A stretch of 64,000 bases of DNA from Buxus sempervirens (lineage: Eukaryota; Streptophyta; Magnoliopsida; Buxales; Buxaceae), in the NCBI GenBank assembly GCA_947561395.2, contig OX387190.1:23430858-23494857 (forward strand). The letters are read 5' to 3'. The notes under the pieces were generated by a model. It made no database searches and was not told the DNA's origin. It saw only the letters and a program-made list of their open reading frames with translations. Positions 36,055 to 61,030 of this stretch are shown piece after piece. Position 1 is the stretch's first letter. Every line of letters begins with the position of its first letter. The position numbers and the translations under genes were made by a program.

Positions 36055-36062
36055 TATTTATA
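36055..36062 (-). promoter_or_regulatory. Solo LTR TATA box
   Basis: TATAAATA on the minus strand in the same AGAGGCTC context as the E1 LTR TATA box. Confidence 0.7.
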
Positions 36063-37704: not shown

Positions 37705-37971
37705 AACCGCACTGTGTATGCGGTTTTTATAATCTCGGTCTCAACCGCCCTATATGTGCGCTTGCAACCGCACACACAGCACGGTTCACGTCAATGCTTG
37801 TTGCGCTGGCGGCCACGTGGCTTCGCGAAGCTTCGGCCGTTAAGCCGCGTGGACAGCAATCAATTAAAGCATAACTGAATTGAACCGCCCTGTATATGCG
37901 GTTTGGTCAAATTTATACATTAACCGCACTTTGAGTGGCGGTTGTGTAGAAACCGCACTGAGTATACAGTT
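37705..37971. repeat. Palindrome cluster A of E2 (six units, 5' LTR)
   Basis: Units start at 37705, 37743, 37766, 37883, 37922 and 37951. The first is perfect: AACCGCA, spacer CTGTGTA, TGCGGTT. Others have one or two arm mismatches; 37922 is 22 nt. All lie 200-470 bp upstream of the LTR TATA box. Confidence 0.93.
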
Positions 37972-38172
37972 TTGGCTGTTCCGAGGCTTTGCGAAATGGC
38001 TCGATCTCTGAGCCTTATTTACGCATATTACCTCTCTCTCAAGGACCTAAACTCCCTATTTCACCCTCCGAAACTTGCTGAATTACTCCAATTCAAGCCT
38101 TGGAGGAGAATTGGAATAATCTAGAAGGCCTTTTTGGCCTACCCTTGGGACTCTTATACCCTTGACTTGGCC

Positions 38173-38180
38173 TATAAATA
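38173..38180 (+). promoter_or_regulatory. E2 LTR TATA box (repeated at 59196-59203)
   Basis: TATAAATA in the context GGCC-TATAAATA-TAGG, matching the position and context of the boxes in E1 and the solo LTR. It sets the U3/R boundary shortly downstream. Confidence 0.75.
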
Positions 38181-38413
38181 TAGGGGTCCTCCTCTTGCAA
38201 ATGGCTGACAATCTGAAGCTTAGAAGCTCTGCAAGAAGAAGGAGAACCTCTGCTGGATTGGCTACTCAACTGTTCAAGCTACTAAGGTAAGGCCTATTTG
38301 AGTTATTGCTTCCCTTTTACATTCTAGCAAATCTCTCATCTTCTACCTTTCTGTAGTGTAAGGCCTTTGTGCATTTTTGCAACCCCAAACCCCTTCTAAA
38401 GTACCTGGGAATC

Positions 38414-38440
38414 CTCTCTAGCCGTAAAACGTGAAGAGAG
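38414..38440 (+). other. Conserved LTR stem-loop candidate
   Basis: CTCTCT and AGAGAG flank a 15-nt loop AGCCGTAAAACGTGA. The loop core recurs downstream of the TATA box in the E1 LTR (about 17614-17628) and twice in the solo LTR (about 35673 and 35805), with the same 6-bp stem in the solo LTR. Its place in the transcribed LTR suggests an RNA element, for example for packaging, but that is inference. Confidence 0.5.
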
Positions 38441-40004
38441 AGCCTGGGGAAAAAGAAGGTGGAATGGATCCTCTAGGTTTAGAACCCTCAAATGATGAAA
38501 AGCATGCTATATGGTTATTTTGAACCCTTGAATGCTTCTCTGATTTTATTTTATATTTGGAGAAGATGTGAATCCATGCTCTCAATAGCCATGGATTCCA
38601 ACTTTCTCATAGAAATGTGATTTTCCACACCTTCACACTCACTTTTCACTATTTTCATCAAATAGGCTAGATCTTGGGCTTTCCATGTTCAATATAAAAT
38701 CTGAGGTCCTAGGCCTTAGAATGAGTTTTAGAACTTCATGAGGAGATTTCTTGTTGATTTTGAGGTTTTGGTCGAATCCACATGCACACATGCACTGGTT
38801 TCCATGTTTCCTCTTCAAAAACCTCAAAACAGGACAGATCTGTGGCCTGTCTTGGAAGACTCATAACTTCATCCTCCGGATGAATTTTTGAGTGATTCTG
38901 AAGACATGTGATAGATGGATGTGTCTACTTAATATCTGGAAATTTTCGTCCACTTCCATGTAGCCAATTTTTGACACCATCTCTTCAAAGTTTGTAAGAC
39001 AGTTCAGCCCAGATTGCTGAACTTGCCGCTTTGATGGTGCACTATTTGCTCAGTTTTAATCCGTTTCCTATGATTCCAGTTTCTGAGTTTTCTTTGAGAA
39101 GTCTACTTTCATTTCCAACTGGTTTCAGTAGATTTCAATCTGTTTTGTGTCTTGGGTGCTCAGTTGACTCAGAAGTGCTCGCTGGCATAGTCCAGAGCTC
39201 ATCTGTGGTCTTCTAGGCCTGTTCAAGAGAGCACACAAGTCACATCCGGATAGAGATTGGTGTGAGATTTTTTTCTTTGGAAAGATGGCACCACATACTT
39301 CCTCCATACCAATTTTCATGGATTTTTATTGAGCCAAACTCCACGGATAGAGCTTTGAAAATGCCTACTTAACACTTTTTCTGAGTTATAACAGCAGATT
39401 TCATATGTGGATTTCTCTCTTGTTTTGGATCGGATTGAGCTGAATTTTCTACTATATACTCTACTATATACCAGTTTTCCAATGGCTTTGGTTTCACTTG
39501 ATTTGGATTTAAATTGAATGAGTTATGGTTTATCAAAGCTTTCAAGTTCTTTTGACCTAATTTCTCCAGATTTGCCTTAGCCGGATTTTCTTCATTTTTA
39601 CTTTGATTTTCCTTCACTCATGAGGTTTTAGAAGTGATGAATCCACAAAGAGAGCCTAAGTTCATTAGACTTCTCATGTGGAATGATCACTTACATGGTG
39701 CTTGTGGTAAGCATCCTTTTGCCCATTTTGTTAGAAAAATGATTCTTAGCATAAGCAAGCATGTGGTAACCGTCTTAGACGGATGAGTGGGGGTGCCTAA
39801 CACCTTCCCCCGCTCATAAATAATTCCTCGTACCCAATCTTTGGATTTTCCTTGTATTAGAGCTACTTTGGCCCTATTTGACATTTATGAAACCTTTGGT
39901 GTCCATTCACACCTTAAATTGGATGGTGGCGACTCTTATTTTTATCGATCCCCGCGTGACGATAACCGGAAGTCATCCGAGATGACGAATCCATGTCTCA
40001 CAAC

Positions 40005-41612: not shown

Positions 41613-41699
41613 AACCGTCCTGAGTATGCGGTTTTCTGCATTTTCGCTGCAACCGCATGTATCATACGGTTTGAGCCAAACTGTCCTGAGTGTGCGGTT
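41613..41699. repeat. Palindrome cluster B of E2 (three units, leader)
   Basis: Units start at 41613, 41651 and 41679, with arms AACCG(T/C) or AACTGT and GCGGTT or ACGGTT. Confidence 0.9.
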
Positions 41700-42430
41700 T
41701 TAAGCCGAAATCCCATTCTGGCCTTGCTAATTAAACATTTCTGGGTCCTTTCATCCCTAAGTTATATAAGCAAGTGTGCAGTGACTCCAAATAAGATAAA
41801 TGGCATTTAAACCATTCCAAATCCACCCAGATCAAGAGATTAAGGTCATTTTGAACATATTCACCTAAATTGAGCAAATTAATCCAACTCAAAGGTAAAA
41901 ATGATAAAATAAAAGTTGGCTCAAACCAAAAATCAGGTCAAGCACCAAATTTTGGGGTTTAAGCTCATGTTAGGCTCTTTTTACCTAATTTGAACACCTA
42001 ACCCATCTTAATTGAAGTAAATGATTAAAAGAAAATTGGTTCAAATAACCAACCTAATCATACTTCAACCTCAAGAATTAAACTTGGAAATCACAATAAG
42101 CTTCCAAAGCATGTTTTAAGCCTAAAGTGGGATCTGAACCAAGAGTAAAAGGAAAAGAGGCTCAACTCTTTTAAAATGGAGCAAATTCCAACCAAAAATA
42201 AGAAATCTTTAATCATAAAGTATTCAAACTTTTAAGATTTCAACTCATTGGGTCACTGGGAAACCTCTGAATTCCAAGCAAGTGATCAATTAAGGATTCA
42301 ATAAAAAAAAATTTCAAATAAATCACCACCTTAAAGATAAAGTGAGTCTCTTTTTAACTCAAAAACCCTAAGGCTGGAAATCAAAAAATTTTTAGGTATC
42401 TGAAAGCCTTGGAATTTCAGAAAATCAATT

Positions 42431-42750
42431 CATAGGACTCCTGGAAGCCTGAAATTCCAGACTTTTTCAAAATCTTCATAGGCCTTCTAAAGCCTGAATT
42501 TAGAAACTCATAGGACCCTGGAAGCCTGAAATTCCAGACTTTTTCAAAATCTTCATAGGCCTTCTAAAGCCTGAATTTAGAAACTCATAGGACTCCTGGA
42601 AGCCTGAAATTCCAGACTTTTTCAAAATCTTCATAGGCCTTCTAAAGCCTGAATTTAGAAACTCATAGGACCCTGGAAGCCTGAAATTCCAGAATTTTTC
42701 AAAATCTTCATAGGCCTTCTAAAGCCTGAATTTAGAAAATCATAGGCCCC
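42431..42750 (+). repeat. 77-78-bp tandem repeat in the E2 leader
   Basis: Four copies start with CATAGGA at 42431, 42509, 42586 and 42664, with a partial fifth at 42741. Copies differ by an alternating one-base indel (GGACTCCTGG and GGACCCTGG). Confidence 0.93.
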
Positions 42751-43319: not shown

Positions 43320-46300
43320 ATGAACCCTGCTGAAGAACAATCTACTGTTTCGGCTGAGGCCTTTGCTCAACTGCAAGAGCAAGTGGCAGGGATGACCAAA
43401 CTATTGGAAAATTTGCTGGCCAACCAAGCCGCTCAGGCTCATGTGCAGGCGCAGGCTCAGGTTCACCAGGCTTCATCATCCCACAATGCACCACCACAGG
43501 CTCCACCCCAGACTGAACTTCCACCGCCAATCCAACCTATCCTACCTCAACCTGAACTCTCTCATCCAAACCCCGAGCCTATCCTGATCCGGGAGGAGGA
43601 ATCTGAATGTGAGAGGGAAAAGGAGAAAGAGAAGGAGAGACTGAGGGTAGAAGTGGAGAGAAAATTCTTGGACAAGCTGGAGTCCATTCAAGAGGAACTG
43701 AAAGAAGTAAGGGGGATCAACACGTTGGGAGGTACCAACTTTCAAGATCTCTGCCTGTACCCCGACGCATGCTTACCGGCCAAATTTAAGTGCCCGGACT
43801 TTGAGAAATATGACGGCACCGGATGCCCAATGAGCCATCTGAAGCTCTACTGTGGGGCGTTGTGCCAATTTGGCCAGGATGATGGCATCCTGATCCAGCT
43901 ATTCCAGAGAAGCCTAACTGGGGCAGCCTTGAGATGGTTCGCAACTGTGGACCACGGCAGAATCAGAAGGTGGAAGGACCTAGCTGATGCTTTCCTTGCT
44001 CAGTACCGTTTCAATGCTGACATCGTGCCAGATAGGTACGATATGATGAAAATGAGTAAGGGAAGAGATGAGACAGTCAGGCAGTATGCCAAAAGGTGGA
44101 GAGAAACCGCCTCTCAAGTCAGGCCTCCCATGATGGAGCCAGAGATGGTTACCACCTTCATTGGCACACTGGGGCATCCATTTTACAATCATTTGGTGGG
44201 TCAGGTTACCACCAGTTTTGCTGCCCTAGTGTTGGTCGCGGACCGGATTGAAGATGGAATCAGATCCGGGCGAATCCACGACCATTCTGCCACGGCTCGT
44301 CAACAGGAGCCAACTTTTGATCCTTCTGCCCAGAAGCAAAAAAATGGGGCAAGAAGGAATGGAGGAAAGAAAGAAGGGGAAGTAAACATGGTACAACCCC
44401 AACCACCACAAAAACCCATCCAGATCAATATTGCTGCACCTCCACCCAGTCCAGTGCAGCCACAATCGACCTATCAAAACCCTCTCAACATTAATGTTCC
44501 TCAGGCGGCAATGCCCAACCAAAAAAGGGTATTCTCAAAAGAGGAGAGAGACGCTTGGATGGCGTCCAGAAGGAGCAGGGTCCTTTCCCCTCTTCCTGTG
44601 ACCACATCCCAGCTATTGCCATCTTTGTTAAACGCGGGGTATGTCACCCTGAAAGAACCAAATCCGAATGTGTCAAAAGGAAAGAATTTTGATCCCTCCA
44701 CCACCTGTGAATACCATATGGGTGCACCAGGACACCCTATAGACAGGTGTTGGCCATTAAAACATGCCATCCAGGATTTGATCGATCAGGGAACCCTGTT
44801 GTTTAACACGGCTGCACCCTCTCCCGCCAGGACTGACATTGGTCAGAATCCTCTGCCCCAGCATAATGGGGCTGGTCCTTCCAATTTTGTAGGGACCATC
44901 TCTTCTAGACCTAGGACGTTTGATCCCTCGCAGTTAATTGCGCCAATAGGGACGTCCGTTAGGGTCTATTTTGACCAGGAAGAGATAGAGGAACAAATCA
45001 ATGTCATTTCTGGAAATAATGGAAATGGCAAGACTGCAGAGGACATTAATGCCTCTTTAAACCGGGCCGCTTCTCTTATGGCCCAGCTTAATGTAGCCAA
45101 ACCCCCTCTCATTATTAATTGCAACCAGGCTGTTGCTTCCCCACCTACTCCATCATCCAAACCATCTTTGGTCATTAATTATGACCCCACCACTGCTTCA
45201 ATTACATCTGTTTCCTCTCAAGCCTTAAAATCCTCTCAACCCAGGGAACCCAAGCAATCTTCGCCTCTGGTTATTGAGGTGCCTTCTTCTAAACTTATTC
45301 CCACATCAGCTCCGGCACCAAGGTCTCATCTCCAACCCTTGGTATTTAACGTTCCTAAACCCTCCTATTCAGAAACTGATGTACCTTGGAACTACAGCGA
45401 GGGTTATACGACCACTATCCCAGTGGCCAGGAATCAGGGTCAGGAGGAGATAAACCTCATGACAAGATCAGGGAGGTGTGTGGAAGGAAAAGAACAAGAA
45501 AAGAAAGAGGCAGAACAAGTCCAGAAAGGAAAGGCCAAGATAGGGGAGGACACCCCCCAGGTCGACAGTAAGGAGGCAGAGGACCTCCTAAAAATACTGA
45601 AAAAGAGTGAATTCAATATTGTTGACCAATTAACCAAGGTCCCTGCTCAGATATCAATACTGGGATTATTGCTTAATTCAGAAAAGCATAGGGACTCATT
45701 AATGAAAGTACTCCAGAGCGCCCACGTGCCCAAAACAATTGAGCCAGACCAGCTCGGCACGATGATCGGCCAGATTTTATCTCACAATGTAATAAGTTTT
45801 TCAGAAAGCGAAATAAGCCCTAGCGGATGTTATCACATGGACCCTTTGCACATCACTGTGCTCTGTAAGGGTAGCATGATAGCCAGGGTCCTAATTGACA
45901 ATGGGTCAGCCTTAAACGTCTGCCCCCTCGTAACTTTTGTGAGGCTTGGTCTGGACCAATCCAAGATAAAGCAGAACGGGAGGATTGTGAGAGCTTTCGA
46001 TAGCTCCAAAACACACTCCTTGGGAGAGATTGAACTGCCGATTACCATCAGACCGAATATCTTTAATATCACATTCGAAGTGATAGATATTCCTGCTGCC
46101 TTCAATCTACTTCTGGGAAGGCCGTGGATCCACTCAGCTAGGGCTATACCCTCTACTCTTCATCAAAGAGTAAAATTTATAAGAGGCCAAAGGGTGATAA
46201 CGGTCCTAGCCGAGAACCTAGTCCCTCCCGTCATATCACCGGATGTACCTTTTATTAATGTGGAATTAACGGCAGACAAAATTGCTTTTCACTCTTTTCA

Positions 46301-47087
46301 GTTTGAAACCGTCAACTTCATACCTGGGGGGTGTCTAAAAAAGAATGAGAAGTTGACATGCACCAATAAGATGGTGGAGAAGGTCTTAAAGGATTGCAAT
46401 TTCCACCCAGGGAAGGGGTTGGGAATTAACCTGCAAGGAAGGGTGACGCCCATAGAGGCACAGAGGTTGGTCCCACGAGTAGGACTAGGGATGAAAATAA
46501 GAAGATGGAAGAGGGGACCACAGAAAGAAAATGAGAGGGAAAAGAATCAAGGAAAGTTCCCTCATTTAAGGGAAACTTTCCCGAAGCCCTCTCATACCAT
46601 TCAATGGGCTCCTCCTACAGATTCCTCCAAGCCTCCGTATTTCAATGACAACCCTTTTAGAAAACCTTTTACCTCAACCCTTCAACCTTTTATCCCACTC
46701 TCACCCACTTTGGCGCCCAAAGCCACGGGTGAGCCTGAGCCACTGCCACAAGAGCAGCAGGATTTCACTGGAGAAATAGGGGCATTCTTTGCAATGGCAG
46801 AGGATGAAGGAAGAGAAAAAGCAGAAAAAGAGACTCCTTTTATTGATTGGGCCTCAATCAAGATTCCTGATGAAGTCACCTCTGAACTCAGCCCTGAAGC
46901 AGAAAAGGGCAGTTTTTCAAATCCGGTAATGATGGTATCGGATCAAGAGTTTGAGGAAGAACAGGTTTGCACTATACCACCTATTCCAGAGGGCTTTGTA
47001 CTGAAAAATTGGGAAGAGACCCCTTTGACGTTTGAGGCTGCATATGGTTGGCAATCAGCTGCGGCCTCCAAAAAAAAACTCCATTAG
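43320..47087 (+). CDS. E2 gag-protease polyprotein (1255 aa, intact)
   Basis: The protein forms the particle and processes itself. An ATG at 43320 opens a long uninterrupted frame. Residues 1-130: Gln/Pro-rich and charged coiled region. About 150-310: gag fold (PAKFKCPDFEKYDG, LKLYCGALCQFG, LRWFATVDHG, MSKGRDETVRQYAKRWRE). At 463-477: zinc-binding CEYHMGAPGHPIDRC, a C-x2-H-x5-H-x4-C variant. Near 860: aspartic protease active site IDNGSALN, followed by the flap and LLGRPWIH. Near 1029: G-patch-like HPGKGLG. The frame ends 9 codon-bases past an A9 run (47070-47078), where pol begins in the -1 frame. Codon for codon it parallels E1, which has stops. Confidence 0.93.
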   Translation: MNPAEEQSTVSAEAFAQLQEQVAGMTKLLENLLANQAAQAHVQAQAQVHQASSSHNAPPQAPPQTELPPPIQPILPQPELSHPNPEPILIREEESECEREKEKEKERLRVEVERKFLDKLESIQEELKEVRGINTLGGTNFQDLCLYPDACLPAKFKCPDFEKYDGTGCPMSHLKLYCGALCQFGQDDGILIQLFQRSLTGAALRWFATVDHGRIRRWKDLADAFLAQYRFNADIVPDRYDMMKMSKGRDETVRQYAKRWRETASQVRPPMMEPEMVTTFIGTLGHPFYNHLVGQVTTSFAALVLVADRIEDGIRSGRIHDHSATARQQEPTFDPSAQKQKNGARRNGGKKEGEVNMVQPQPPQKPIQINIAAPPPSPVQPQSTYQNPLNINVPQAAMPNQKRVFSKEERDAWMASRRSRVLSPLPVTTSQLLPSLLNAGYVTLKEPNPNVSKGKNFDPSTTCEYHMGAPGHPIDRCWPLKHAIQDLIDQGTLLFNTAAPSPARTDIGQNPLPQHNGAGPSNFVGTISSRPRTFDPSQLIAPIGTSVRVYFDQEEIEEQINVISGNNGNGKTAEDINASLNRAASLMAQLNVAKPPLIINCNQAVASPPTPSSKPSLVINYDPTTASITSVSSQALKSSQPREPKQSSPLVIEVPSSKLIPTSAPAPRSHLQPLVFNVPKPSYSETDVPWNYSEGYTTTIPVARNQGQEEINLMTRSGRCVEGKEQEKKEAEQVQKGKAKIGEDTPQVDSKEAEDLLKILKKSEFNIVDQLTKVPAQISILGLLLNSEKHRDSLMKVLQSAHVPKTIEPDQLGTMIGQILSHNVISFSESEISPSGCYHMDPLHITVLCKGSMIARVLIDNGSALNVCPLVTFVRLGLDQSKIKQNGRIVRAFDSSKTHSLGEIELPITIRPNIFNITFEVIDIPAAFNLLLGRPWIHSARAIPSTLHQRVKFIRGQRVITVLAENLVPPVISPDVPFINVELTADKIAFHSFQFETVNFIPGGCLKKNEKLTCTNKMVEKVLKDCNFHPGKGLGINLQGRVTPIEAQRLVPRVGLGMKIRRWKRGPQKENEREKNQGKFPHLRETFPKPSHTIQWAPPTDSSKPPYFNDNPFRKPFTSTLQPFIPLSPTLAPKATGEPEPLPQEQQDFTGEIGAFFAMAEDEGREKAEKETPFIDWASIKIPDEVTSELSPEAEKGSFSNPVMMVSDQEFEEEQVCTIPPIPEGFVLKNWEETPLTFEAAYGWQSAAASKKKLH
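47070..47078 (+). promoter_or_regulatory. Candidate -1 frameshift site (A9 run)
   Basis: Nine A residues precede the gag-protease stop (TAG 47085-47087). Pol is open in the -1 frame from this run, and the residues just after it (KTPLVDC in E2, KTPIVEC in E1) are conserved in the -1 frame. The same A9 lies at 24938-24946 in E1. Ribosomal frameshifting or transcript slippage on the A-run would fuse the products. Confidence 0.7.
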
Positions 47088-50000
47088 TGGATTGCCCTTT
47101 TCCTGAAGGTTTTAATGAACCTTCATCTTCAGGAAAAGCCTTTTTAGAAGGTTCTCAAAAAACCCAAAAAGATTTTTCAATTTTTTCTAGAAAATCTAAA
47201 GCTTTCAAAATGTTCCAGACTGCTTATGAACCATACACACAGACTGAATTAGAGCAAGTTGAATATGACTTCGACTTCGAGCTCGACTTCGACCTAATGG
47301 GGATCGAAGAGGAGATCGAGGCCGAAGACGATGACCTTCCAAGAGAAATATCATATCAATTGGAACGTCATGAAAAAGGTATTCAACCTAATATTGAAGA
47401 AACCATTTCCACAAACCTGGGAACCAAAGAGGACCCAAAAATTGTAAAGATTGGTGCATGCTTGTCTGAAATGCAGCGGAAGGAAATGTCCCAATTCTTG
47501 GCCGATTACAAAGACGTGTTCGCATGGTCTTATCGGGATATGCCAGGGTTGGATACAGACATGGTTGTACACAGGCTGCCAATCCTGCCAGGAGTAAAGC
47601 CTATTAAGCAGAAATTGAGAAGGCTGAAACCGGAATGGACTTTGAAAGTCAAAGATGAAGTAGTAAAGCAGTTTCAAGCCGGGTTTTTGGCAGTGTCCAC
47701 ATACCCTTATTGGCTAGCCAATATAGTCCCAGTTCCAAAGAAGGATGGAAAAGTCAGGATGTGTGTGGATTACAGGGACTTGAACAAGGCAAGCCCGAAG
47801 GATGATTTTCCATTGCCACACATCGACATCTTGGTTGATAATACGGCAGTGCACAGCTTGTTCTCTTTCATGGATGGCTTTTCCGGATACAACCAAATCA
47901 AAATGGCAAAGGAGGATTAAGAGAAAACCGCTTTCATCACTCCTTGGGGAACTTTTCACTACACAGTCATGCCTTTCGGATTGAAGAATGCCGGGGCAAC
48001 ATATCAGCGAGCCATGACGGCCCTTTTCCATGATATGATCCACAAAGAAATGGAAGTCTATGTGGATGATATGATCGTCAAATCATGTGAAGAGGAAGAC
48101 CACTTGATCAATCTAAAGAGGGTATTCGACCGTCTAAGGAAGTACAGCTTAAGGCTTAATCCAGCAAAGTGTGTCTTTGGAGCCACATCAGGGAAATTGT
48201 TAGGCTTCATTGTAAGCAGAAGAGGGATTGAGATAGACCCGTCTAAAGCCAAGGCAATCATTGAGATGCCATCTCCTAAAACTGAAAAGGAAGTTAGGGG
48301 CTTTCTGGGAAGAATTCAGTATATCAGCCGGTTCATAGCACAACTCACTGCTATTTGCGAGCCGATCTTTAAACTTCTAAGGAAGAATAACCCAACTATA
48401 TGGAATGAGGATTGCCAACAAGCATTCGACAAAATAAAGGATTATCTGTCAAATCCTCCTGTTCTAGTACCGCCAACTCCAGGAAAACCATTGATTCTGT
48501 ATCTATCAGTTTTAGAAACATCAATGGGATGTGTATTGGGGCAGCATGATGAAACAGGCAGAAAAGAAAAGGCTATCTACTATTTGAGCAAGAAGTTCAC
48601 AGATTATGAGACGAGATATTCGCCTTTGGAAAAGACTTGTTGTGCTTTGGTCTGGGCAACTCAGAGGCTTAGGCACTATTTCTTAAGCTATTCAACTTTG
48701 TTGATTTCCAGGATGGATCCGTTGAAATATCTGTTCGAAAAGCCGGCTTTAACTGGCAGAACAGCGAAGTGGCAGCTTTTGCTTTCAGAATTCGACCTAA
48801 CATATGTCACTCAGAAAGCAATTAAAGGTCAGGCAATTGCTGATCATCTAACTGAGCATCCATTGCCAGATTATCAACCTCTTAAAACGAATTTCCCTGA
48901 TGAGGCTATCTTATTTGCTGAAGAGGAAGAAAGTGAAGACTCCTGGCAGATGTTCTTTGATGGGGCTGCAAATATGAATGGAAATGGGATCGGCGCAGTA
49001 TTAGTAAAGCCAGATGGTTCACATATCCCAATCGCAGTGAAATTGAGGTTTTAGTGCACGAACAACATAGCAGAGTATGAGGCATGTATAATCGGATTAC
49101 AAGCTGCTCTAGACCATGATGTTCAAGAACTTGACGTATATGGAGATTCGAGTCTTATCATCTTCCAAACAACTGGGGAATGGAAAACCAAAGATCATAA
49201 ATTGATCCCATATCACCAATATTTGGAAGAAATAAGTACCAAATTTACTCGAATTTCTTTTAGCTATATGCCAAGGGCTAAGAATCAGTTTGCGGATGCC
49301 TTGGCGACATTGGCCTCAATGGTTAGTATTCCAGAAGGGGTAGACATACAACCACTTGAAATTGAAGTCAGAGACGAGCCAGCTTACTGTCTTGTTTTGG
49401 AAGGAGCGCAAGAAACAGAAATACCATGGTTCCAAGATATCAAGAATTTCTTGGATAATCGAAATTTTCCAGAAAGCGCTAGTCCCACTGAAAAAGAACA
49501 ATACAGAAGTTAGCAGGACAGTTCCTTCTAAGTGGTGGGCAGTTATATAAAAGATCTTACAATAATGTTCTACTCAGATGCGTCACCAAGGTTGAAGCAG
49601 AAAGGTTGATTGAAACAGTGCACGGGGGAGTCTGTGGGCCGCACATGAATGGACACATGCTCGCGAGGAAAATATTGCGATTGGGATATTATTGGTCTAC
49701 AATGGAGCACGATTGTTGCCTACATGTTAAGAGATGCCATTTGTGCCAAGTATATGCTGATAATAAGCATGCACCACCAAGTGAGCTGCACAGCATGACC
49801 TCTCCATGGCCTTTCTCTATGTGGGGTATTGATGTCATCGGGATGATTTCTCCTAAAGCGTCAAATGGACACCGGTTCATTCTAGTGGCCATCGATTATT
49901 TCACAAAGTGGGTTGAAGCTGCTTCGTACGCAAATATCACAGGAAACCATGTTCTTAAGTTTCTAAAGCACAACATAATTTGTCGCTATGGGTTGCCAAA

Positions 50001-50673
50001 AGCCATAGTTTCAGACAATGCTTCAAATATTAAGAACAAGGATATGAAGAAGATGTGTGAGCAGTTCCAGATAACTCATCACAAATCAGCCCCTTACAAG
50101 CCAAAGATGAATGGAGCAGTAGAAGCGGCAAATAAGAATATAAAGAAAATAATCCAGAAGATGGTGGTAAGCTATAGAGATTGGCACGAGATGTTACCAT
50201 TTGCTCTCCATGCTTACAGAACCTCGATTCGAACTTCTACTGGGGCAACGCCGTATTCCTTGGTTTATGGAATAGAGGCAGTCTTACCTGTTGAGGTAGA
50301 AATCCCTTCATTAAGAGTGCTTATGGAAACAGAGCTTGAAGAGGCTGAATGGGTTCAGTCTAGATATGAGCAACTTAATCTGATAGAAGAAAAGCGGTTG
50401 AATGCGCTTTGCCATGGTCAACTGTATCAGAGGAGAATGGCCAGAGCCTACAACAAGAAAGTGAAGCCCAGAGCTTTCCAAGTGGGTAATTTACTCTTAA
50501 AGAAGATATTACCATTTCTGGAAGACCCTCGTGGAAAGTTTAAGCCAAATTGGGAGGGACCTTATGTAGTGAAGAAGGTCTTGTCAGGAGGCGCTCTTAT
50601 CTTGACAGAAATGGATGGGGCAGATTTTCCTGAGCCAATCAACTCCGATGCGGTCAAACAATATTTCCCTTGA
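47079..50673 (+). pseudogene. E2 pol: reverse transcriptase, two RNase H domains, integrase
   Basis: It copies element RNA into DNA and inserts it. Reverse transcriptase: VDYRDLNKASPKDDFPLPHID, FMDGFSGYNQI, PFGLKNAGA and catalytic YVDD near 48059-48070. First RNase H: LYLSVLETSMGCVLGQHDE to QRLRHYFLSYS. Second RNase H: MFFDGAANMNGNGIG, EYEACIIGL, YGDSSLII, FADALATLASM. Integrase: CHLCQ finger, WGIDVIGM, VSDNASNI, NGAVEAANKN, then a C-terminal chromo-less tail with NWEGPYVVKKVLSGGA. Breaks: TAA at 47918-47920 and TAG at 49052-49054, both where E1 shows glutamine, and a one-base loss near 49495. The rest is open, and the lesions look recent. Confidence 0.93.
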
Positions 50674-51724
50674 AGGAATATCACAAAGAAATGATCCGAG
50701 GCCATTTTTCTTCATCCCTCACAAATTTTAATATCCCTATATTAAACCAAGTTGAGCCTGTTCGTGTTTTAAAGAACCCAAACTGGAGCTTACAGTCGCG
50801 ACGGGGGCAGGGTTAATAGAAAAAAACACAAAAAGGAAAATAGCAAAGAAAGGCCAAATACAAAGAAAAGGAAAAAAGGCCAATATTGGGAATGGGGGGT
50901 CACATCCATTATGACTGTAAGCCCAGCTGTCCCATTTTCAAAATGTTAAAATTTTGAGCCTATAATAACCTTCCTTCATAAACTCAACCCAGCCTTCATT
51001 TCGTCCTATCGATCAAGTCCTCGGTGATCTGGGTGTATTCCTTCAAGCTCGGGATGTTAAAAGGGCAATGACGGAATAAATAAGCCGGTCCTAGTGAAAA
51101 CCGTAACAGGCACTAGGGGCAATATTGGCAGAAAGAAGGCAAAAGAAAAAGGAATAAAAGAAAAGAAAGAAACAAGGAAAAGGTCACCAACCGCACTTGG
51201 GATACAGATTGAACTAAACCGCCTTTTTTCTACGGTTTTGGCAGAAGGGCTGTGCAACCGCTTATTGAAGACGGTTTTGGCTAAACCGTTCTGAATGCAC
51301 GGTTTTGTGCAACAGAATTGAATTGAGCAGATTTTCTGCACAGGACTGAACCAGTAGGCTGGGGCAGGCCCCCTGGAAGTGGGAAAGAAACTTGGGGATG
51401 AGTCTAAGGGTTCCAAGGGGGACGGATTGGCTTCCTCCTCATTAACTGAAATACCCTTTTTTGCCCAACTTACTTCAATTCATCCAACTATATGGGATTA
51501 AAGCATCATGGACCAATTTACAATAAAAACACACAAAAATGAAAATTATATTTTGGCCAATGATGAGAAATCAGTGACTTTTCATTAAAACTGTAAGTTT
51601 TTACAAGCATATGAGAGTTCTGAGGCCAATAGTATAAAAACCTATTTTGTATTCTCTATCTTTCCACTAGTGGAGTTTCTCTTTGTACAGGGGTGTAAAA
51701 AAGAAAAAAATACAATAAAAGGGG
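50674..51724. other. E2 spacer between convergent pol and antisense gene
   Basis: No gene. It contains an A/G-rich stretch with 'aaaagg' repeats (50818-50880), palindrome cluster C (51189-51304) and matches to the E1 spacer at 20364-21339. Confidence 0.65.
51189..51304. repeat. Palindrome cluster C of E2 (four units)
   Basis: Units start at 51189 (degenerate), 51217, 51256 and 51284, with arms AACCG(C/T) and ACGGTT. It lies between the 3' ends of pol and the antisense DUF7745-like gene. Confidence 0.88.
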
Positions 51725-53377
51725 CTAATCTCTATCCCCTAGCCTTTCCTCAAGCTCTCTGATCCGAGCCGCCTGAACCGCCACAAGCCTTTCAGCCCCC
51801 TCTGCATCTGGGTCACTGAGGAATGAGATGACGTCATCTGAGAGGGTCTGCCTAGTCCTCATATCTCGGAGCCTGGCCATCGTTTCATCATGCCTGCGCC
51901 ATGCAGCTCTCACCTCGAAGCGACGGGCCTGTATCTGCTCTGATAACCGTCTCTCCAGATCTTCCTTCTCCAATCTCAAGGTTCGGGCCTCCTCCACCCA
52001 TATGAGCTGAAGCCGCCTATGAGAAGCCCGCTCGGTCTCTAAGAGGTCCTCATAGGTAGGACACGGGATAGCAGGGGAATCCACCGGTATGGAAGCGCAG
52101 CTCTGCACCTGCTCTGTAATCCAGAAGATATAGTCCTTCTCATGCAATTTGGAGAAGACAGGACCTCTCAAGAAGCAGGCCTGCGACCATTCCTTCAATA
52201 ACCGGAAGCATAGGCCCATGGTGGCTGGTGTGAGGGGACCAATGAGTTCTTCATATCCATGAGGTACCAAAATCCCTTGAGACTCCTCTCCAAACTGCCG
52301 GATGACTCTCAAAGGCAAGTAGAGCAAGGCAGACCTCAAGCCCATGAGCACAGCGAAATTCTGATCGGAGAAGCTGATCACTGTCTCGACAGAAGGCTGA
52401 TAAGCACCAGGCCATCTCAGCTGGTCGTCCTGAAGCGTCCCCAAGAAAGCAAACCATCCCTGTTTGCCGCCATGTATATTGGGACACCCCCTGTTGCTCA
52501 TCAAAACAGGAATATTTAGCCGAGGGAAGAAGCGGCGGGTGATCTCTTCAACTTGACTCAGGTGGTCAAGTAGCCAGAGCTGCAAATAAAAGGGAAGCAT
52601 TTCTATCTTAGAAAATCTCAATTTTGCAATAAAAGTTATAATTCAAGAAAGAGGGTCAGATTTTACCTGAAGTATAGGGGCGCAGGCAAGGAAACTTTTC
52701 TGCTTCCGGTGATAGCAGTCAGTCAGGGCCTGGTATATTTCAGCCAGGATCATAGGGGCGAGCCTTTCAAGCTCCCTAACTTGGCAAATGACTGAAATGA
52801 GGGATAAATCAACCTCGCTATCACCTCGGGGGAATAAAAGTTGATTGACCACTATCAAGGTCAAAGCATTGAACCAAGCCGACTGGTTGGAGCTATTTAG
52901 CAGCTTCTCAGTCAAAAATGACTTGGATAGGGTCAATAAGGCGTCGGCTTCCCCTAACTCTTTCTTGTTAATCCCTAAAAAGGTGGAGGCTTCCTTTTTG
53001 AAGCTCGGTTTGAGAGGTGGGTTGACAACTTTCTTAGAGAACCTAAGGTTGAGAATGGTTTCAACCTCCTCGACTGTAGGGGTCATCTCTTTTTCCCCAA
53101 ACCTGAAGAGGTTCAATTGAGGCTCCCAATGCCCAATTAGTGCCTCTATGATTTCCCATTTTAGAGGAACCTTTGGGATTGAGAGGAGGTGGCCTAGATT
53201 GGCAGAGGCCCAATCCATCTCATCTTGAGGGGTCATTGAGGAGACCCACCTCTCATAAAATGTATCTACAATGGCATACCTAGTCAAATTAGGAGGTTTG
53301 GACCTAATTTTTGGTCTAGGTGCTGGTATTTCAGGTACGGAAGATGAAGAAGGCACAGAAGCTGAACCAGAAGCCAT
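51725..53377 (-). CDS. Antisense DUF7745-like gene of E2, two exons, intact (521 aa)
   Basis: Exon 1 is 53377-52667 and exon 2 is 52579-51725. The 87-bp intron has a CAG|GTAAAA donor and TTTGCAG acceptor, phase 0. No stop interrupts 521 codons. The N-terminus is Ser/Pro-rich (MASGSASVPSSSSVPEIP). The first domain shows RYAIVDTFYERW and LFRFGEKEMTPTVEEVETIL, the pattern of plant DUF7745 / plant-mobile-domain-related proteins. Exon 2 has LMSNRGC, GGKQGWFAFLGTLQDDQ and FSDQNFAVLMGL; the C-terminal third is a predicted coiled coil ending ELEERLGDRD. It runs antisense to gag-pol, so its intron survives retrotransposition. Function is unknown. An inferred promoter with palindrome cluster D lies 130-250 bp upstream. 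Confidence 0.85.
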
Positions 53378-53508
53378 TGATGGGCAAAAGTGGATTAAAG
53401 GCAGCTAGGAGAGAGAAAATCGCCGAAACAGGGGGTTTCTGACCTAAGCAATACGTCAAAATGACGTCCTGCCCGCAATTCGCGGCTTTAAAATAACCTA
53501 AGGGCAAA

Positions 53509-53626
53509 AACCGCATACACAGAACGGTTATGCCTGAACCGCACTTAATATGCGGTTGCATTCCCGCAAGGTTTAAAAACCGCGGAATAAGTACGGTTCT
53601 TGTATAACCGCCCTGAATGTACGGTT
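53509..53626. repeat. Palindrome cluster D of E2 (four units)
   Basis: Units start at 53509, 53537, 53578 and 53606. The second is perfect: AACCGCA, CTTAATA, TGCGGTT. The cluster is 130-250 bp upstream of the DUF7745-like start codon (53377, minus strand). Confidence 0.93.
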
Positions 53627-53857: not shown

Positions 53858-56671
53858 TCAATCCCTATCGCCTCTACCCCGCCGACGCTGCCGGATGAAA
53901 AAGTGGTCGGAAAAGCGCTGGCTAGCGGGAGAAGAAGGCTCACCAAGCAAGGATGGACCAACAGGAGGCACCGGGTCTACAAGAGGCGCAGGATCAGTAG
54001 AAGAGGCTGAGGCTGAAGCTGGATCATCCCGGGTCAGGTCCATGAAGCAGGAGACTGAAGTGTCCGCAGCCAAAGGAACCAGCTCCAGAACCCGAGAGTC
54101 CTCGACAGGAGGAGATGGATCTGCTACGCCGGGAACATCCTCCTCTCTCGTAGGCTCGGCCACCTCTGGATCTGCTACGCCGGGAACATCCTCCTCTCTC
54201 GTAGGCTCGGCCGCCTCATGAACCGCGGGAACCTCCAAGTCACCCTCCGCTGTCTCAGGAGCAGTCTCTGGCTCAGATGCAGGAGCGGTCTCAGATACAG
54301 GTGCAGCCTCGGGCATCTCGGCCGACTCATGAACTACACCAACAGAGGTAGCCTCGGCCGCCACCTCAGTCTCTCTCTCTCGGGAATCTCCACAGCTCCT
54401 AAAGAGAAGGACCAAGTGCGAGAACTGGATGGTGAAGGCACCACATCCTCCTGGAAGACAAAGACAGACTGATCAGAAGCAGGAAAGATAAAGGAAAAAA
54501 ATGCAAGAAACTGAAGAAGACAGACCTGAGCTCCTGAAGGCCCAGCCTGGCCCTGGGCACTGGCCAACTGGGCCCGCAAGTCAGCAATGAGAGCGGCTTG
54601 CCCAGTGATGATGACGTCGCTCTCAGCAATGGCGGCGTCTCTCTCAGCCAGCTGGCGCTCCAGATCCGCATATCGAGCCCGGACCTCCTCTAGCTGTGCC
54701 TCCTGAAATAAGATAAGAAGAGAAAAGATATCAGTAAATAAGAAAGAAAGACTAGAAGAATTTACAAGAAAAGGAGGTTCATACCGTGGTGTCATAGAGG
54801 CGGATCACTACCCCTCCTATCTCAGTAACTCCACCTCGAACGGGCATGGGCTGCATCAGACAACCCACTGAGACCTGCCCGAACCAGGTATCATAGTCAC
54901 CATCGACTAGAAGGCCATCTCCTGCCTCCCACTCGCCAAAATGGGCAGGGTCGAATGGACCAGAAGGGGTGAAAGGTGCTGTAGCTGGAGGAGCCATTGG
55001 GATCCGGGGCTCGCCAGTATGCTGGAAGAAGAAGCGCTCCCCGAGGTACCATATACTACCCAACTGCCCAATAAAGAATGGGTACCTCTGTCGTCGCTGA
55101 TCCAGGGCGAAAGCGGCGTCCACAAAAGGCTGAAAAGCCAACTCGTCATGCAGGCCGTCAAGACGGGGAACAGATAACTGAGGGTAAACAAAGAAGAATA
55201 TCAGAATCTGATAAAAGGGAGAAAAGGAAATGAGGAAAAGAGAGATGGAGAAAGTGCTTACCTCTCCCCTGAAGGTCCTGTCCAGGTGAGCCCTGGCCGA
55301 CCTAGGGAGACTCTTCTCTGAGTCACGCCTAGTCTGATTCCACCGACGGGCCAAGGGAAATGTCCCCTCAGACAAGGTGGAGGTAGGGCGGAAATGGGCC
55401 ACATAGACCCGAGCAAAGAACTGAAAAAGAAAAAAAAAAGAAGAGAAGAAAAAAAAAGGAAAGAAAAGAAAAAAAAAAGAGGTTAAGCAAAGAGAAGAAA
55501 AAAAAAAGAAGAAGAAAGAAAAAAAAAAGAAAGAAAGTCGTTTATACCTGCAGAAAGGGCCAGAAAAATCTGCAACCCACTCCGGCTCCCCTGGGAGAGG
55601 ACAGGCCAGAAACCACTAGTTGAAGGCCCGCTAGCAGGGTGCCATAGACAAGCTGACCCCACGCGTAGTCCCTCGCTCGGTGCAGATCCCGGAGAAGACT
55701 CAAGAAATGGGGGCTGACGGAAGTAGTATCCTCCAAGCAGAAGCAGGAGCCCATCATCAGAAGGAAAAGAAACCGGAAAGCTATCGGGAAACTGGGATGC
55801 TCCGCTGCTAGGGTACTGAAGCCCCTCTCCAAACATGCCTCCCTCAACCATGTCCGGGAAATACGAGTAATCCTGCTCCGGTCCCACGCCTCCACTGGCA
55901 TCTCGTCATATCCCAACAGCTCGGCAATCTCCAAGTCCGCCGGCCGATCCATCTCAGTGATGACATCTCCAGTCATCCTGATCCCAGTAATAAGAGCGAA
56001 GTCGGAGGGGTGAATGCCTATCTCCACATCAGGCAAATGGAAGCTCAGGGTCTCCGGGAAAAAACGCTCCAACAAAGCCAAGATCAAAGGCCGATCCTGA
56101 CGAACGCCGGTGATGGTGATGAAGGGGCCAAATCCAAAACGGCCCATCTCTCGGCGCAGAGAGGTCGAGCAGGCAGCTACAACATCGGCAAAAAGGGCCC
56201 AGCTCCCTCGGAAATGAGAAGAAGGATATCTAAGAGGGATGTCTGCCCTGACGCCTGCCGAAGGATGCGTCGTCAAACTATGAAGGAGAGGGGTGTCCTG
56301 GATCTGATCTGCTATCTCTGCAGGAATGGCGACACGAGTCGCCCGGGCCCCTGCCCTACCTCTACGACGAGCTCCCCTACGCTCACGGACCTCACCAGCA
56401 GGCTAGAAAGGCGAATAAGAAGGGTTTAAGTTGAATGTGATAAAAGAAAGGCCGGATTTTAAAAAGGGAAAGGGAATACCTCTGGGATCGACTACAGCGA
56501 ATCCCCAGACGCTCCAGAGTCTGAATCTGAGAGCTCCAGACCACTAGGAGAAGAAGGCTCAGGGTCCGGCTCGGCCCTAGAAGAAGAGGCCACATCGGCC
56601 GGGTCCCTCCGAACCCTCGAAGACGAAGGCTCATCTGCGGGACCCCGGGAAGCTCGACGTGTACGAGCCAT
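53858..56671 (-). pseudogene. Antisense plant-mobile-domain-like gene of E2, six exons
   Basis: Exons: 56671-56480, 56402-55548, 55420-55262, 55177-54785, 54702-54526, 54450-53858. All five introns (75-127 bp) are GT-AG and phase 0. Exon 1 is Ser/Arg-rich. Exon 2 holds the plant mobile domain pattern: FFPETLSFHLPDVEIGIHPSD, ALITGI, then FLFLLMMGSCFCLED, LLRDLHRARDYAWGQLVYGTL and FFWPFLQ. Exon 4 has WYLGERFFFQHTGEP; exon 5 is a coiled coil (LEEVRARYADLERQLAERD). The last exon encodes an acidic Pro/Glu-rich tail ending RGRGDRD. Two lesions: TAG at 56492-56494 in exon 1, and a frame change inside the last exon near 54400-54450. Plant mobile domain proteins act in transcription silencing and genome defence. 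The role here is unknown. Confidence 0.8.
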
Positions 56672-58140
56672 CTACAGGACCAATTACAGGGAGAAATTCA
56701 TTATGCTTATTCATTTAAATAAAACCATGATATTTTCTTACATGTCTTCTTTAATTTTTCTTTTCTCTAAATTAATCTAATTCGTTTGGTTTGCAGAAAA
56801 ATGGAGATTGCAGAAGACACTGCAAAAAAATTCTCAACCAAACCATGATCTGGCTATTCTACTCTTCAAAATCTTTGTTCTTTTAGAAGTTTTATTGTCA
56901 TTATTATTCATATAAGACTTATATGCAAGAATGTGAAGGTTCCTGTATACTTATCTTATACGATAAAATGAAAAAGAAAAGGGTGCATTAAGGGTTAGCT
57001 TTTCTGGGAAATCTGTATCCCGGTTTGACATTTTAAGAGGTCTAACCATCTAATCCTATTTTCAGGGCATCCAAGGCAGGCTCAAGTTAACAAGGAAAAT
57101 ACCCGGCAAAGCCAGGCAAATTGTTCAAGCCTAGCTAAAATTATCAAGTCAAGCCCAAGCAAGCATATCAAATCAACAGGTTCACAAGGAAAGGCGATTC
57201 AGGATCACTAAGTTCCTAACAAGCATCCGGGTGTTCAACTCAAATTAATGTTTCTGGTGCTAATAAGGTGTCAGCATCAATTGGATCCAAAGCCAATCAA
57301 TGCCAGCATGCAAGTAAACCAAGAACGGACATCTGTGCCACTATCCCCAAATAGCAAAGATCACACCTTTCCAGGTGGAACATCAACCAAGAAAAATCAG
57401 ATTCATGACAACATGCACAGATACAGAAGTTGGAAATATCAAACAGCATTGGCCTTCAAAAGAATTGCAGAATGTTATGGCAAAATTCAGATAAACCTAT
57501 GCTGTCCACAAGCACAGAAATTGGGAGGTCTCTCAATCAGGAGCAAAGAACCCAAACCATACCAGAAATCTGAGCAGTACAAATCATGGTTGGGTTCAGA
57601 TCAATTTTTACATTGGGCACATGCAAGATTGGGGATTTTCTCCCATCAGCAAATAAGCAGCCAATACAGTCAATCAAGGACAAAGAATCAAAATCATGCC
57701 TCAAACAAGTTCATTCAATCAGCAAATATATGCATGGATTTTCGGATTGAGAATATTCATGAGAAATCCAGATTCGGCCACCTACCTGCTTCGGCCGAAA
57801 ATGTAAGAAAGATAGAGGATTCAACCTCACCGGAGCTCCAGAAGAGAATGGCTGAACGATTGGCGAACTCAGAAAATCCTCAATCGATGAGGAAGCTGAG
57901 GCTAGGTCGTGGTAGGATGGAAAGAGCTTGCCGGAATCCACCAACACAAGAGGTTGTTGATCACGGCTCACAACCGAAGTCGCCGGAGAGAATAGAGTTC
58001 ACCGGAAAAGATGAAGCCGCCGGAGGAAGAGTAATCTCACCGGAGAAAGAAGAGATGAAAGCCGGAGAGAAAGCACGGTCGCCAGAGAAGAGGAACAGCA
58101 CCAGAGTTCTAGGGTTTTCGCGAACGAAATGAAGCCAGGC
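56672..58140 (-). other. Inferred 5' UTR intron and leader exon of the antisense gene
   Basis: Exon 1 is preceded directly by an acceptor-like CTGTAG at its ATG. A donor AAGCAG|GTAGGT at 57786 would end a leader exon reaching about 58140, which on the minus strand is CT-rich with CTTTCTCCGG-like repeats and AACCCTAG, typical of plant 5' UTRs. An open frame on the plus strand (57248-58132) covers the same DNA but looks like compositional bias, so I do not call it a gene. The leader exon is inferred, not seen in transcripts. Confidence 0.45.
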
Positions 58141-58173
58141 GCGGTCGCGGCCTCGGTTATATGAAACCTAGAA

Positions 58174-58272
58174 AACCGCACACACAGATCGGTTGGTATT
58201 AATATTGTTGAAAACCGCACATACAGCACGGTTGAAATTGAAAATGCTAAAAACCGCATGTCCAGTACGGTT
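58174..58272. repeat. Palindrome cluster E of E2 (three units)
   Basis: Units start at 58174, 58213 and 58252, spaced exactly 39 bp, the same period as in the E1 LTR. Arms AACCGCA and (T/A)CGGTT. They lie just upstream of the inferred antisense leader exon (minus strand). Confidence 0.92.
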
Positions 58273-58597
58273 GGCACCCAAAAATGAATTTTCAAAACTT
58301 TTTTCAATCTCTCTCAAAGGATCTATGTCCAGGGCAGTTGTGAATTGCAAGAACCACCATCCTATCAACTTTTGCTTTTAAAATTTGCTCAAATCTCACT
58401 TCATAGCCACGAGTGCTCCGTGAGAGGCGAGGAGAGGATTTGACCCTTAAGGTTAGGGACTTTTCATCAAATCCTTTAAACAAATTCTTTTTCAAAAACC
58501 ATATTGGAGTTCTTGCAGCTCATAATCGAATGGACATGATCCTGAGAGGTGCAATTTGCGGGTCTTTTGCTCTCCGCTGTCAATTGATTCCAATTCC

Positions 58598-58614
58598 AGC
58601 GAAGAGGGGGCAGT
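58598..58614 (+). promoter_or_regulatory. E2 polypurine tract
   Basis: AGCGAAGAGGGGGCAGT directly before the 3' LTR, matching the E1 tract in sequence and position. Confidence 0.88.
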
Positions 58615-61025
58615 TGAAGACACCCCAAATTGCACCCCAATATAAGAGATTAACTAAGATGGGCTTTAAATGTCTTACTTGAGCCTTGACATGTGTCAAG
58701 CTTTCAAAAACAATCAAAATCAGTGCCAACCGCACTGTGTATGCGGTTTTTATAATCTCGGTTTCAACCGCCCTGTATGTGCGCTTGCAACCGCACACAC
58801 AGCACGGTTCACGTCAATGCTTGTTGCGCTGGCGGCCACGTGGCTTCGCGAAGCTTCGGCCGTTAAGCCGCGTGGACAGCAATCAATTAAAGCATAACTG
58901 AATTGAACCGCCCTGTATATGCGGTTTGGTCAAATTTATACATGAACCGCACTTTGAGTGGCGGTTGTGTAGAAACCGCACTGAGTATACAGTTTTGGCT
59001 GTTCCGAGGCTTTGCGAAATGGCTCGATCTCTGAGCCTTATTTACGCATATTACCTCTCTCTCAAGGACCTAAACTCCCTATTTCACCCTCCGAAACTTG
59101 CTGAATTACTCCAATTCAAGCCTTGGAGGAGAATTGGAATAATCTAGAAGGCCTTTTTGGCCTACCCTTGGGACTCTTATACCCTTGACTTGGCCTATAA
59201 ATATAGGGGTCCTCCTCTTGCAAATGGCTGACAATCTGAAGCTTAGAAGCTCTGCAAGAAGAAGGAGAACCTCTGCTGGATTGGCTACTCAACTGTTCAA
59301 GCTACTAAGGTAAGGCCTATTTGAGTTATTGCTTCCCTTTTACATTCTAGCAAATCTCTCATCTTCTACCTTTCTGTAGTGTAAGGCCTTTGTGCATTTT
59401 TGCAACCCCAAACCCCTTCTAAAGTACCTGGGAATCCTCTCTAGCCGTAAAACGTGAAGAGAGAGCCTGGGGAAAAAGAAGGTGGAATGGATCCTCTAGG
59501 TTTAGAACCCTCAAATGATGAAAAGCATGCTATATGGTTATTTTGAACCCTTGAATGCTTCTCTGATTTTATTTTATATTTGGAGAAGATGTGAATCCAT
59601 GCTCTCAATAGCCATGGATTCCAACTTTCTCATAGAAATGTGATTTTCCACACCTTCACACTCACTTTTCACTATTTTCATCAAATAGGCTAGATCTTGG
59701 GCTTTCCATGTTCAATATAAAATCTGAGGTCCTAGGCCTTAGAATGAGTTTTAGAACTTCATGAGGAGATTTCTTGTTGATTTTGAGGTTTTGGTCGAAT
59801 CCACATGCACACATGCACTGGTTTCCATGTTTCCTCTTCAAAAACCTCAAAACAGGACAGATCTGTGGCCTGTCTTGGAAGACTCATAACTTCATCCTCC
59901 GGATGAATTTTTGAGTGATTCCGAAGACATGTGATAGATGGATGTGTCTACTTAATATCTGGAAATTTTCGTCCACTTCCATGTAGCCAATTTTTGACAC
60001 CATCTCTTCAAAGTTTGTAAGACAGTTCAGCCCAGATTGCTGAACTTGCCGCTTTGATGGTGCACTATTTGCTCAGTTTTAATCCGTTTCCTATGATTCC
60101 AGTTTCTGAGTTTTCTTTGAGAAGTCTACTTTCATTTCCAACTGGTTTCAGTAGATTTCAATCTGTTTTGTGTCTTGGGTGCTCAGTTGACTCAGAAGTG
60201 CTCGCTGGCATAGTCCAGAGCTCATCTGTGGTCTTCTAGGCCTGTTCAAGAGAGCACACAAGTCACATCCGGATAGAGATTGGTGTGAGATTTTTTTCTT
60301 TGGAAAGATGGCACCACATACTTCCTCCATACCAATTTTCATGGATTTTTATTGAGCCAAACTCCACGGATAGAGCTTTGAAAATGCCTACTTAACACTT
60401 TTTCTGAGTTATAACAGCAGATTTCATATGTGGATTTCTCTCTTGTTTTGGATCGGATTGAGCTGAATTTTCTACTATATACTCTACTATATACCAGTTT
60501 TCCAATGGCTTTGGTTTCACTTGATTTGGATTTAAATTGAATGAGTTATGGTTTATCAAAGCTTTCAAGTTCTTTTGACCTAATTTCTCCAGATTTGCCT
60601 TAGCCGGATTTTCTTCATTTTTACTTTGATTTTCCTTCACTCATGAGGTTTTAGAAGTGATGAATCCACAAAGAGAGCCTAAGTTCATTAGACTTCTCAT
60701 GTGGAATGATCACTTACATGGTGCTTGTGGTAAGCATCCTTTTGCCCATTTTGTTAGAAAAATGATTCTTAGCATAAGCAAGCATGTGGTAACCGTCTTA
60801 GACGGATGAGTGGGGGTGCCTAACACCTTCCCCCGCTCATAAATAATTCCTCGTACCCAATCTTTGGATTTTCCTTGTATTAGAGCTACTTTGGCCCTAT
60901 TTGACATTTATGAAACCTTTGGTGTCCATTCACACCTTAAATTGGATGGTGGCGACTCTTATTTTTATCGATCCCCGCGTGACGATAACCGGAAGTCATC
61001 CGAGATGACGAATCCATGTCTCACA
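58615..61025 (+). repeat. E2 3' LTR (2411 bp)
   Basis: Gapless match to the 5' LTR, with differences seen at 58617, 58763, 58775, 58944 and about 59928. It ends at the aaacc duplication. Confidence 0.95.
58728..58994. repeat. Palindrome cluster F of E2 (six units, 3' LTR)
   Basis: Copies of the six units of cluster A, starting at 58728, 58766, 58789, 58906, 58945 and 58974. Confidence 0.93.
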
Positions 61026-61030
61026 AAACC

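Follow-up and report, generated by a model that had tools for sequence, protein, structure and literature searches.

Why does a single retrotransposon carry the same short palindrome 26 times, always outside its coding sequence? The question arises from a 64,000-bp stretch of the Buxus sempervirens genome (contig OX387190.1, positions 23,430,858 to 23,494,857; called the window here), which contains E2, a 23-kb Ogre-like Ty3 retrotransposon with 26 units of the form AACCG-N11-CGGTT, all non-coding. Our favored reading is that the units are operator DNA to which a trans-acting dimer or multimer would bind, perhaps the elements' own plant mobile domain (PMD) protein, and we assign this reading as a whole a probability of about 0.45. 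Its two parts differ in strength: the sequence makes it quite probable that the units are operator sites, and we lean slightly toward a binder encoded by the elements themselves, one of two antisense PMD proteins.

A search of the window for AACCGCA-N7-TGCGGTT with at most three mismatches returned 27 matches, against 1.0 expected (the largest count in 100 shuffles was 5). Twenty-five of these are units listed in an earlier sequence-only reading of this DNA, and the other two (35445 and 49030) resemble chance. The core AACCG-Ng-CGGTT, allowed one mismatch, gave 23 sites at a gap of 11, every one within E2, and four at a gap of 12, two of which (37922 and 58945) were also listed; the remaining gaps from 4 to 20 gave 0–3 sites each. 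Adding the unit at 51189, which has two core mismatches, makes 26 units, 20 in the 5′ long terminal repeat (LTR) and interior plus six repeated in the 3′ LTR. The arrays that they form fall outside open reading frames (ORFs) of at least 150 codons. The mismatch and gap scans thus confirmed the occurrence of 26 copies in non-coding E2 and, for the window, the enrichment over shuffled DNA.

Unit anatomy was taken from 19 units with gap 11; neither the two units of 22 bp nor the copies repeated in the 3′ LTR were counted. The half-site AACCG hardly varies, positions 1–5 being kept in 38, 37, 37, 35 and 38 of 38 half-sites. Further inward, positions 6–10 are Watson-Crick complementary in just 5, 6, 9, 1 and 1 of the 19 units; positions 6 and 7 are variable and mostly unpaired, with C opposite A at position 6 in 11 units. 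After orientation fitting, 11 units point to the plus strand and eight to the minus strand, so units do occur in both orientations, and the oriented spacers carry a signal of approximately AACCGYMCTGWRTRTGCGGTT, with 10.1 bits over the 11 inner positions compared with 3.0 for shuffled spacers (maximum 3.6 of 60). Such a signal would be expected under selection by a DNA-binding dimer that makes additional contacts at its center, and would not be retained by a hairpin stem. We also considered whether orientation tracks promoter direction, with the 22-bp unit 37922 omitted, and there are too few units to claim it (plus in 6/8 for U3 and leader, minus in 5/7 for the PMD promoters).

The sequence-only reading had offered an RNA hairpin as one explanation, and in its general form this would be a structure in genomic or antisense RNA serving packaging, stability, termination or small-RNA production. 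Folding supports part of it: when the five distinct arrays were folded as six segments (U3 split in two), four were more stable than shuffles (z −2.77, −3.95, −2.82 and −7.77), and in a sibling element, E3, complementarity extends deeper into the unit (14 of 17 units at positions 6 and 7). Yet two of the six segments fold no better than shuffles (z about −0.6), the inner positions of E2 units are largely unpaired as given above, and the strongest fold (53509-53626, z −7.8) arises because that whole array is an inverted duplication, in which the linkers too are partly complementary. The step lengths and places described next are features of DNA rather than RNA, and we consider hairpins most improbable as the explanation.

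Start-to-start steps in the five distinct arrays are 38, 23, 117, 39 and 29 bp (U3); 38 and 28 (leader); 28, 39 and 28 (51189); 28, 41 and 28 (53509); and 39 and 39 (58174). Twelve of these 15 steps equal 28 or 39 within 1 bp, against a null mean of 2.75 and a maximum of 10 in 20,000 trials. Inside a unit 11 bp separate the triplets CCG and CGG; from one unit to its neighbor the gap is mostly 11 or 22 bp, and half-sites therefore recur every 14 bp or 14 + 11 bp. The claim that the units are not tandem duplicates of one block stands insofar as the sequences between units differ. Some 7-nt linkers, however, match each other at 4–5 of 7 positions, and the four-unit array at 53509-53626 is a large imperfect inverted repeat.

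The positions of the arrays relative to the genes and putative promoters of E2 are as follows.

37592..40003, plus strand: 5′ LTR, 99.8% identical to 58615-61026 over 2412 bp, with start TGTAGACACC; after it, a primer binding site (PBS)-like tggcgactctgctagggac.
37705..37971: U3 array of six units, at 37705, 37743, 37766, 37883, 37922 (22 bp) and 37951.
38169..38184, plus strand: LTR TATA box CTATAAATA, about 200 bp beyond the U3 array, a strict TATAWAW match with its box at 38173.
41613..41699: 5′-leader array of three units, at 41613, 41651 and 41679.
41759..41774, plus strand: TATATAA box 60 bp past the leader array, also strict TATAWAW (41763), of a candidate internal promoter.
43320..50673, plus strand: gag-pol ORFs, with gag/G-patch at 43320-47087, reverse transcriptase (RT) at 47048-47920 and 47969-49054, and integrase at 49606-50673.
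51189..51304: array of four units, at 51189, 51217, 51256 and 51284, between pol and the 3′ end of PMD-A.
51725..53377, minus strand: antisense PMD-A gene, predicted exons 53377-52667 and 52579-51725, with an open 521-codon frame.
53484..53498, minus strand: weak TATA-like box TATTTTAAAG of PMD-A, picked by eye, between array and ATG.
53509..53626: putative PMD-A promoter array of four units, at 53509, 53537, 53578 and 53606, the inverted repeat mentioned above.
53858..56671, minus strand: antisense PMD-B gene region, with an open PMD exon at 55548-56402.
58106-58118, minus strand: 5′-untranslated-region-like stretch AAAACCCTAG, following the box proposed for PMD-B.
58151..58166, minus strand: weak TATA-like box CATATAACC, proposed for PMD-B and picked by eye.
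58174..58272: proposed PMD-B promoter array of three units, at 58174, 58213 and 58252, all in minus orientation.
58615..61026, plus strand: 3′ LTR, from the LTR comparison.
58728..58994: U3 array of the 3′ LTR, six units.

Four of the five distinct arrays thus lie upstream of a TATA box, strict for U3 and leader and weak for PMD-A and PMD-B. A strict TATAWAW scan finds eight boxes on the plus and 10 on the minus strand in 21 kb and misses both weak ones; because of this, and because such boxes are frequent, these promoters are predictions. The one proposed for PMD-B lies about 1.5 kb ahead of the first ATG. For a full exon model of PMD-B, simple GT-AG joins produce in-frame stops. An open plus-strand frame of 294 codons (57248-58132) with no Pfam match overlaps the predicted 5′ region of PMD-B, and the E2 leader holds approximately four 77-bp tandem repeats (42427-42760) that are unlike the palindrome arrays.

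Between its LTRs E2 has Ty3-type domains (gag, E 7e-11; RT; RNase H; integrase), with PMD-A and PMD-B as antisense extra ORFs. No relatives of its integrase were confirmed in viral contigs. The PBS-like sequence is presumably that of a tRNA-Arg primer. Together with the PMD genes this suggests an Ogre-like lineage, because a PMD extra ORF rides in 57% of surveyed Ogre elements (PMC6317226).

Two siblings of E2 allow the arrays to be compared. E3 spans locus L006 and the adjoining L026-L028 and is interrupted by a nested element. Its protein identity to E2 is 84–90% in RT and integrase, 75% in the first and 59% in the second part of PMD-A, 64–65% in PMD-B, and 48–67% over seven pieces of gag; it has both PMD genes, with an in-frame stop in the PMD-B exon. 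Its arrays are spelled GNCCGT and keep to a 28-bp lattice. The U3 array has three units. Further arrays comprise three leader units directly upstream of CTATAAATA, five more closer to gag, and three clear units at the putative PMD-A promoter, the last shortly before TATATAAAC. Two clear units of this lattice mark the putative PMD-B promoter, a few hundred bases ahead of the 3′ LTR as in E2. When the PMD-A promoter regions are aligned, the last unit of E2 and that of E3 share columns, with a conserved GGACGTCATT nearby. The first base of the half-site is A in 38/38 half-sites of E2 and in 5/34 of E3 (the 34 include the lattice position at 7424 of L028, which is one base out of register). Between E2 and E3, then, the places of the arrays correspond and the letters differ together at every place. 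An LTR-like stretch of the window (34924-36470) is 84.7% identical to the E3 LTR, and palindromes of the GCCCG/GACCG type were seen by eye near 36300.

The array at 51189-51304 was found neither in E1, the second sibling, by alignment of the region (E1 aligns on both sides), nor in E3, by eye and a symmetry scan; E2 therefore most likely gained it. This gain, the differently spelled E3 arrays at corresponding places, the 28/39-bp lattice and the nearness of arrays to likely promoters all support the suggestion of the sequence-only reading that a binding site was repeatedly gained or selected.

E1 occupies 16120-32059 of the window on the minus strand; its pol DNA is 78% identical to that of E2, and only a remnant of PMD-A is present. 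Its U3 array (18048..18185) is four copies of ATCCGG-N9-CCGGAT at exact 39-bp steps, with a copy at 31350-31487 in the other LTR, and its leader holds 76-bp tandem repeats. Exact tandem arrays of this type, the inverted duplication at 53509 and the similar linkers are what one would expect if slippage, template switching or conversion during reverse transcription spread the units by neutral concerted evolution, without any function. However, most sequences between E2 units differ from array to array, the spacing alternates between 28 and 39, and in E3 the arrays again stand near likely promoters. Five loci were tried for E1-type LTRs, of which L030 yielded no alignment; in the other four copies core CpGs of the units are also kept more often than CpGs elsewhere in the LTR (26/32 versus 97/168; p 0.016, which is optimistic because the copies are related), although L013 alone keeps just 4/8. 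We regard the neutral explanation as improbable.

The same grammar was then sought in a host sample of about 210 kb (genome, 676.5 Mb), made up of 20 stretches of 10 kb taken every 2 Mb along one contig, skipping 23 Mb, plus a 2-kb piece and locus L025. CCG-N11-CGG occurs 39 times in the sample against 3.75 in shuffled DNA (maximum 9 of 20), about a tenfold excess, and with two more symmetric outer bases 23 times against 0.15. Chains spaced exactly N11 (six) or N22 (eight) occur, with none in shuffles; the 28/39-bp pairs, 14 in total, lie in 5/20 stretches, and each of 14 control combinations of triplet and gap gave none. With loci from beyond this sample included, spellings number at least five: ATCCGG (E1, L011, L017, L030), ATCCGA (L012, L013), GNCCGT (E3, L021, L015), AACCGA (L008, L029) and AACCGC (E2, L029). 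L029 lies on another contig and carries two groups with a total of seven AACCGC/AACCGT units, one of them with the E2 core AACCGCTCTGTGTATGCGGTT; the stretch is LTR-like, judging by its similarity to L005 and several LTR ends. Neither LTR nor interior DNA of E2 was found in the 21 host samples compared. A repeat family with AACCGAAATT palindromes at steps of about 38–39 bp (partly by eye) was also seen in L008 (7800-7950) and L029 (5480-5700). The LTR ends of L021 and L029 are homologous, but their arrays differ in position, so this pair was not used as proof of dialect switching.

The label 'family-specific' was accordingly too strong, since the architecture is present in several LTR-type families of the genome and, because the E2 spelling recurs in L029, the pattern is not strictly private to E2. 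Either a host factor is common to several LTR families or unrelated elements exploit one element-encoded factor. In the first case a host transcription factor, or a few paralogues with slightly different half-site taste, would use the arrays as enhancers; many LTR elements would have adopted them independently, much like the stress-response boxes of other plant LTRs, with PMD uninvolved. The shared architecture and the L029 spelling fit this, as do the AACCGA units that L008 and L029 have a short way upstream of a CTATAAATA box. No plant factor is known to us to recognize this site; a literature search for LBD proteins as candidates gave nothing, and MYB-type sites (CNGTTR) were set aside because the flanking bases of the units do not fit a constant Y/R (by eye). 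The palindromes of Sireviruses, when compared with databases, mainly recovered sites of stress-related factors (PMC2829016). One fixed factor would nevertheless hold the letters constant, and between E2 and E3 they differ together at all arrays, outer bases included. We regard a host factor as a tenable explanation that fits nearly as well as the favored one.

For the favored reading, with an element-encoded binder, the PMD proteins are the candidates. PMD-A matches the profiles of DUF7745 (E 2.4e-31) and PMD (E 2e-16), and PMD-B that of PMD (E 6e-15), with DUF1985 below cut-off (E 0.06–0.11). Compared with the E1 remnant, the second part of PMD-A has a nonsynonymous divergence (dN) of 0.29 and a synonymous divergence (dS) of 2.2, near saturation and therefore rough. 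A protein search with PMD-A gave seven matches, all in Nicotiana, at 27–32% identity (7995 candidates scored), and one with the PMD-B exon gave none among 7994 scored. A DUF1985 family search of the host gave three matches, none over cut-off; in two DUF1985-like host stretches, L001 and L003, the region matching DUF1985 matches the PMD profile too, both below the curated cut-offs (L001: DUF1985, E 1.1e-6; PMD, E 8.4e-5). L001 matches E2 PMD-B as well (BLASTP E 3e-5, a single comparison). These matches hint that the DUF1985 and PMD families are related. The 'DOWN' motif of Arabidopsis MAIN/MAIL1, CATGCAGTTT, agrees with the E2 half-site TATGCGGTTT at 8/10 positions (p about 0.01); the motif was taken from a single example, in the MORC1 promoter, in a figure legend (PMC9899485). 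As a whole the link between PMD and the arrays is no more than suggestive.

Several results weigh against the favored reading. Related LTRs dominate the host enrichment, and the 23 symmetric units are not independent events, since E1-type LTRs with their ATCCG units account for 16 of them. In L029 the E2 spelling stands in DNA without a match to the window at 1e-10, and a host factor explains it more simply. E1-type LTRs keep their arrays although the E1 copy has just the PMD-A remnant. The fast change of PMD is not special, because gag has diverged at least as much. The nearness of a TATA-type box to an array proves little, and the array at 51189 has no such box within 300 bp. The DOWN motif has four near-matches in the window with no more than one mismatch, and only one of them is in an array. 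A profile-profile comparison of PMD with DUF1985 gave a probability of just 7%. An AlphaFold model of a Nicotiana PMD protein (P0005, alignment of nine) had a mean pLDDT of 43 and was unused for a fold search.

If the favored reading is right, each unit would be a dyad of half-sites, AACCG and CGGTT, whose triplets CCG and CGG are 11 bp apart, and a trans-acting dimer or multimer would bind the arrays near the LTR promoter, the leader promoter and both antisense PMD promoters. We infer that the bound protein would switch on the whole element or keep it open against silencing. With a PMD protein as the binder this would form a self-activation loop, like that of VANC in VANDAL transposons.

By analogy, VANC is the nearest mechanism and the repeated motif of Sireviruses the nearest published feature. 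The Sirevirus motif comprises element-specific palindromes with a CGG/CCG core in 8–32 copies per element (Bousios 2010, PMC2829016). They precede a conserved TATA box in U3, and where an element has the extra gene ENV they also stand before that gene (PMC2829016). E2 likewise has a palindrome with a CCG/CGG core in U3 upstream of a TATA box. Sireviruses are Ty1/copia, however, whereas E2 is Ty3 by its domains and their order, and so no member; here, moreover, the triplets are nearly always 11 bp apart, the units are spaced on a 28/39-bp lattice, and what the extra genes encode, in antisense, is PMD.

VANC21 recognizes the 9-mer YAGTATTAY, and targets change in concert between related VANDAL families (Hosaka 2017, PMC5735166; Sasaki 2023, PMC10398659). 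The arrays of E2 are similar in being a short motif in many non-coding copies that differs between families and stands beside an element-encoded protein, and the same places with other letters in E2 and E3 is the pattern described for VANC targets (PMC5735166, PMC10398659). VANC carries DUF1985 (figure legend, PMC5735166), a domain that may resemble part of PMD. VANDALs, on the other hand, are DNA transposons, and the word 'palindrome' is absent from the accessible text of PMC5735166; binding and demethylation have been demonstrated for VANC, whereas binding to the E2 arrays is a prediction.

Two further systems are close. The DOWN motif of MAIN/MAIL1/PP7L is a promoter motif linked to PMD proteins, with direct binding by PMD unproven in the accessible accounts (PMC7156037, PMC9899485). 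Retand/Grande elements have antisense ORFs between pol and the 3′ LTR, proposed to be regulators with DNA-binding potential (Vicient 2025, PMC11963269); those carry Transposase_28, not PMD, and the accessible text reports family-specific tandem repeats and describes no shared operator site. In the mostly open literature searched, we saw nothing that describes such arrays for Ogre elements or beside PMD promoters.

Host PMD proteins silence transposons and support the expression of some genes, through a mechanism still to be elucidated (PMC7156037, PMC9899485). Because a defined 21-bp site, spelled differently from family to family, lies at likely PMD promoters, the function of PMD can be probed directly by a binding test. 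Should a host factor prove to be the binder, the arrays would be an enhancer code for several plant LTR families, for which we found no description in the literature searched. A wider proposal, which we consider unlikely though worth stating, is that Ogre-type PMD proteins are sequence-specific self-activators or anti-silencers that read the CCG-N11-CGG grammar on its 28/39-bp lattice, with flanking letters split into family 'dialects', that PMD and DUF1985 share common descent, and that the host proteins MAIN/MAIL1 are a domesticated form of this system; if this were true, retrotransposons and DNA transposons would use the same kind of self-recognition.

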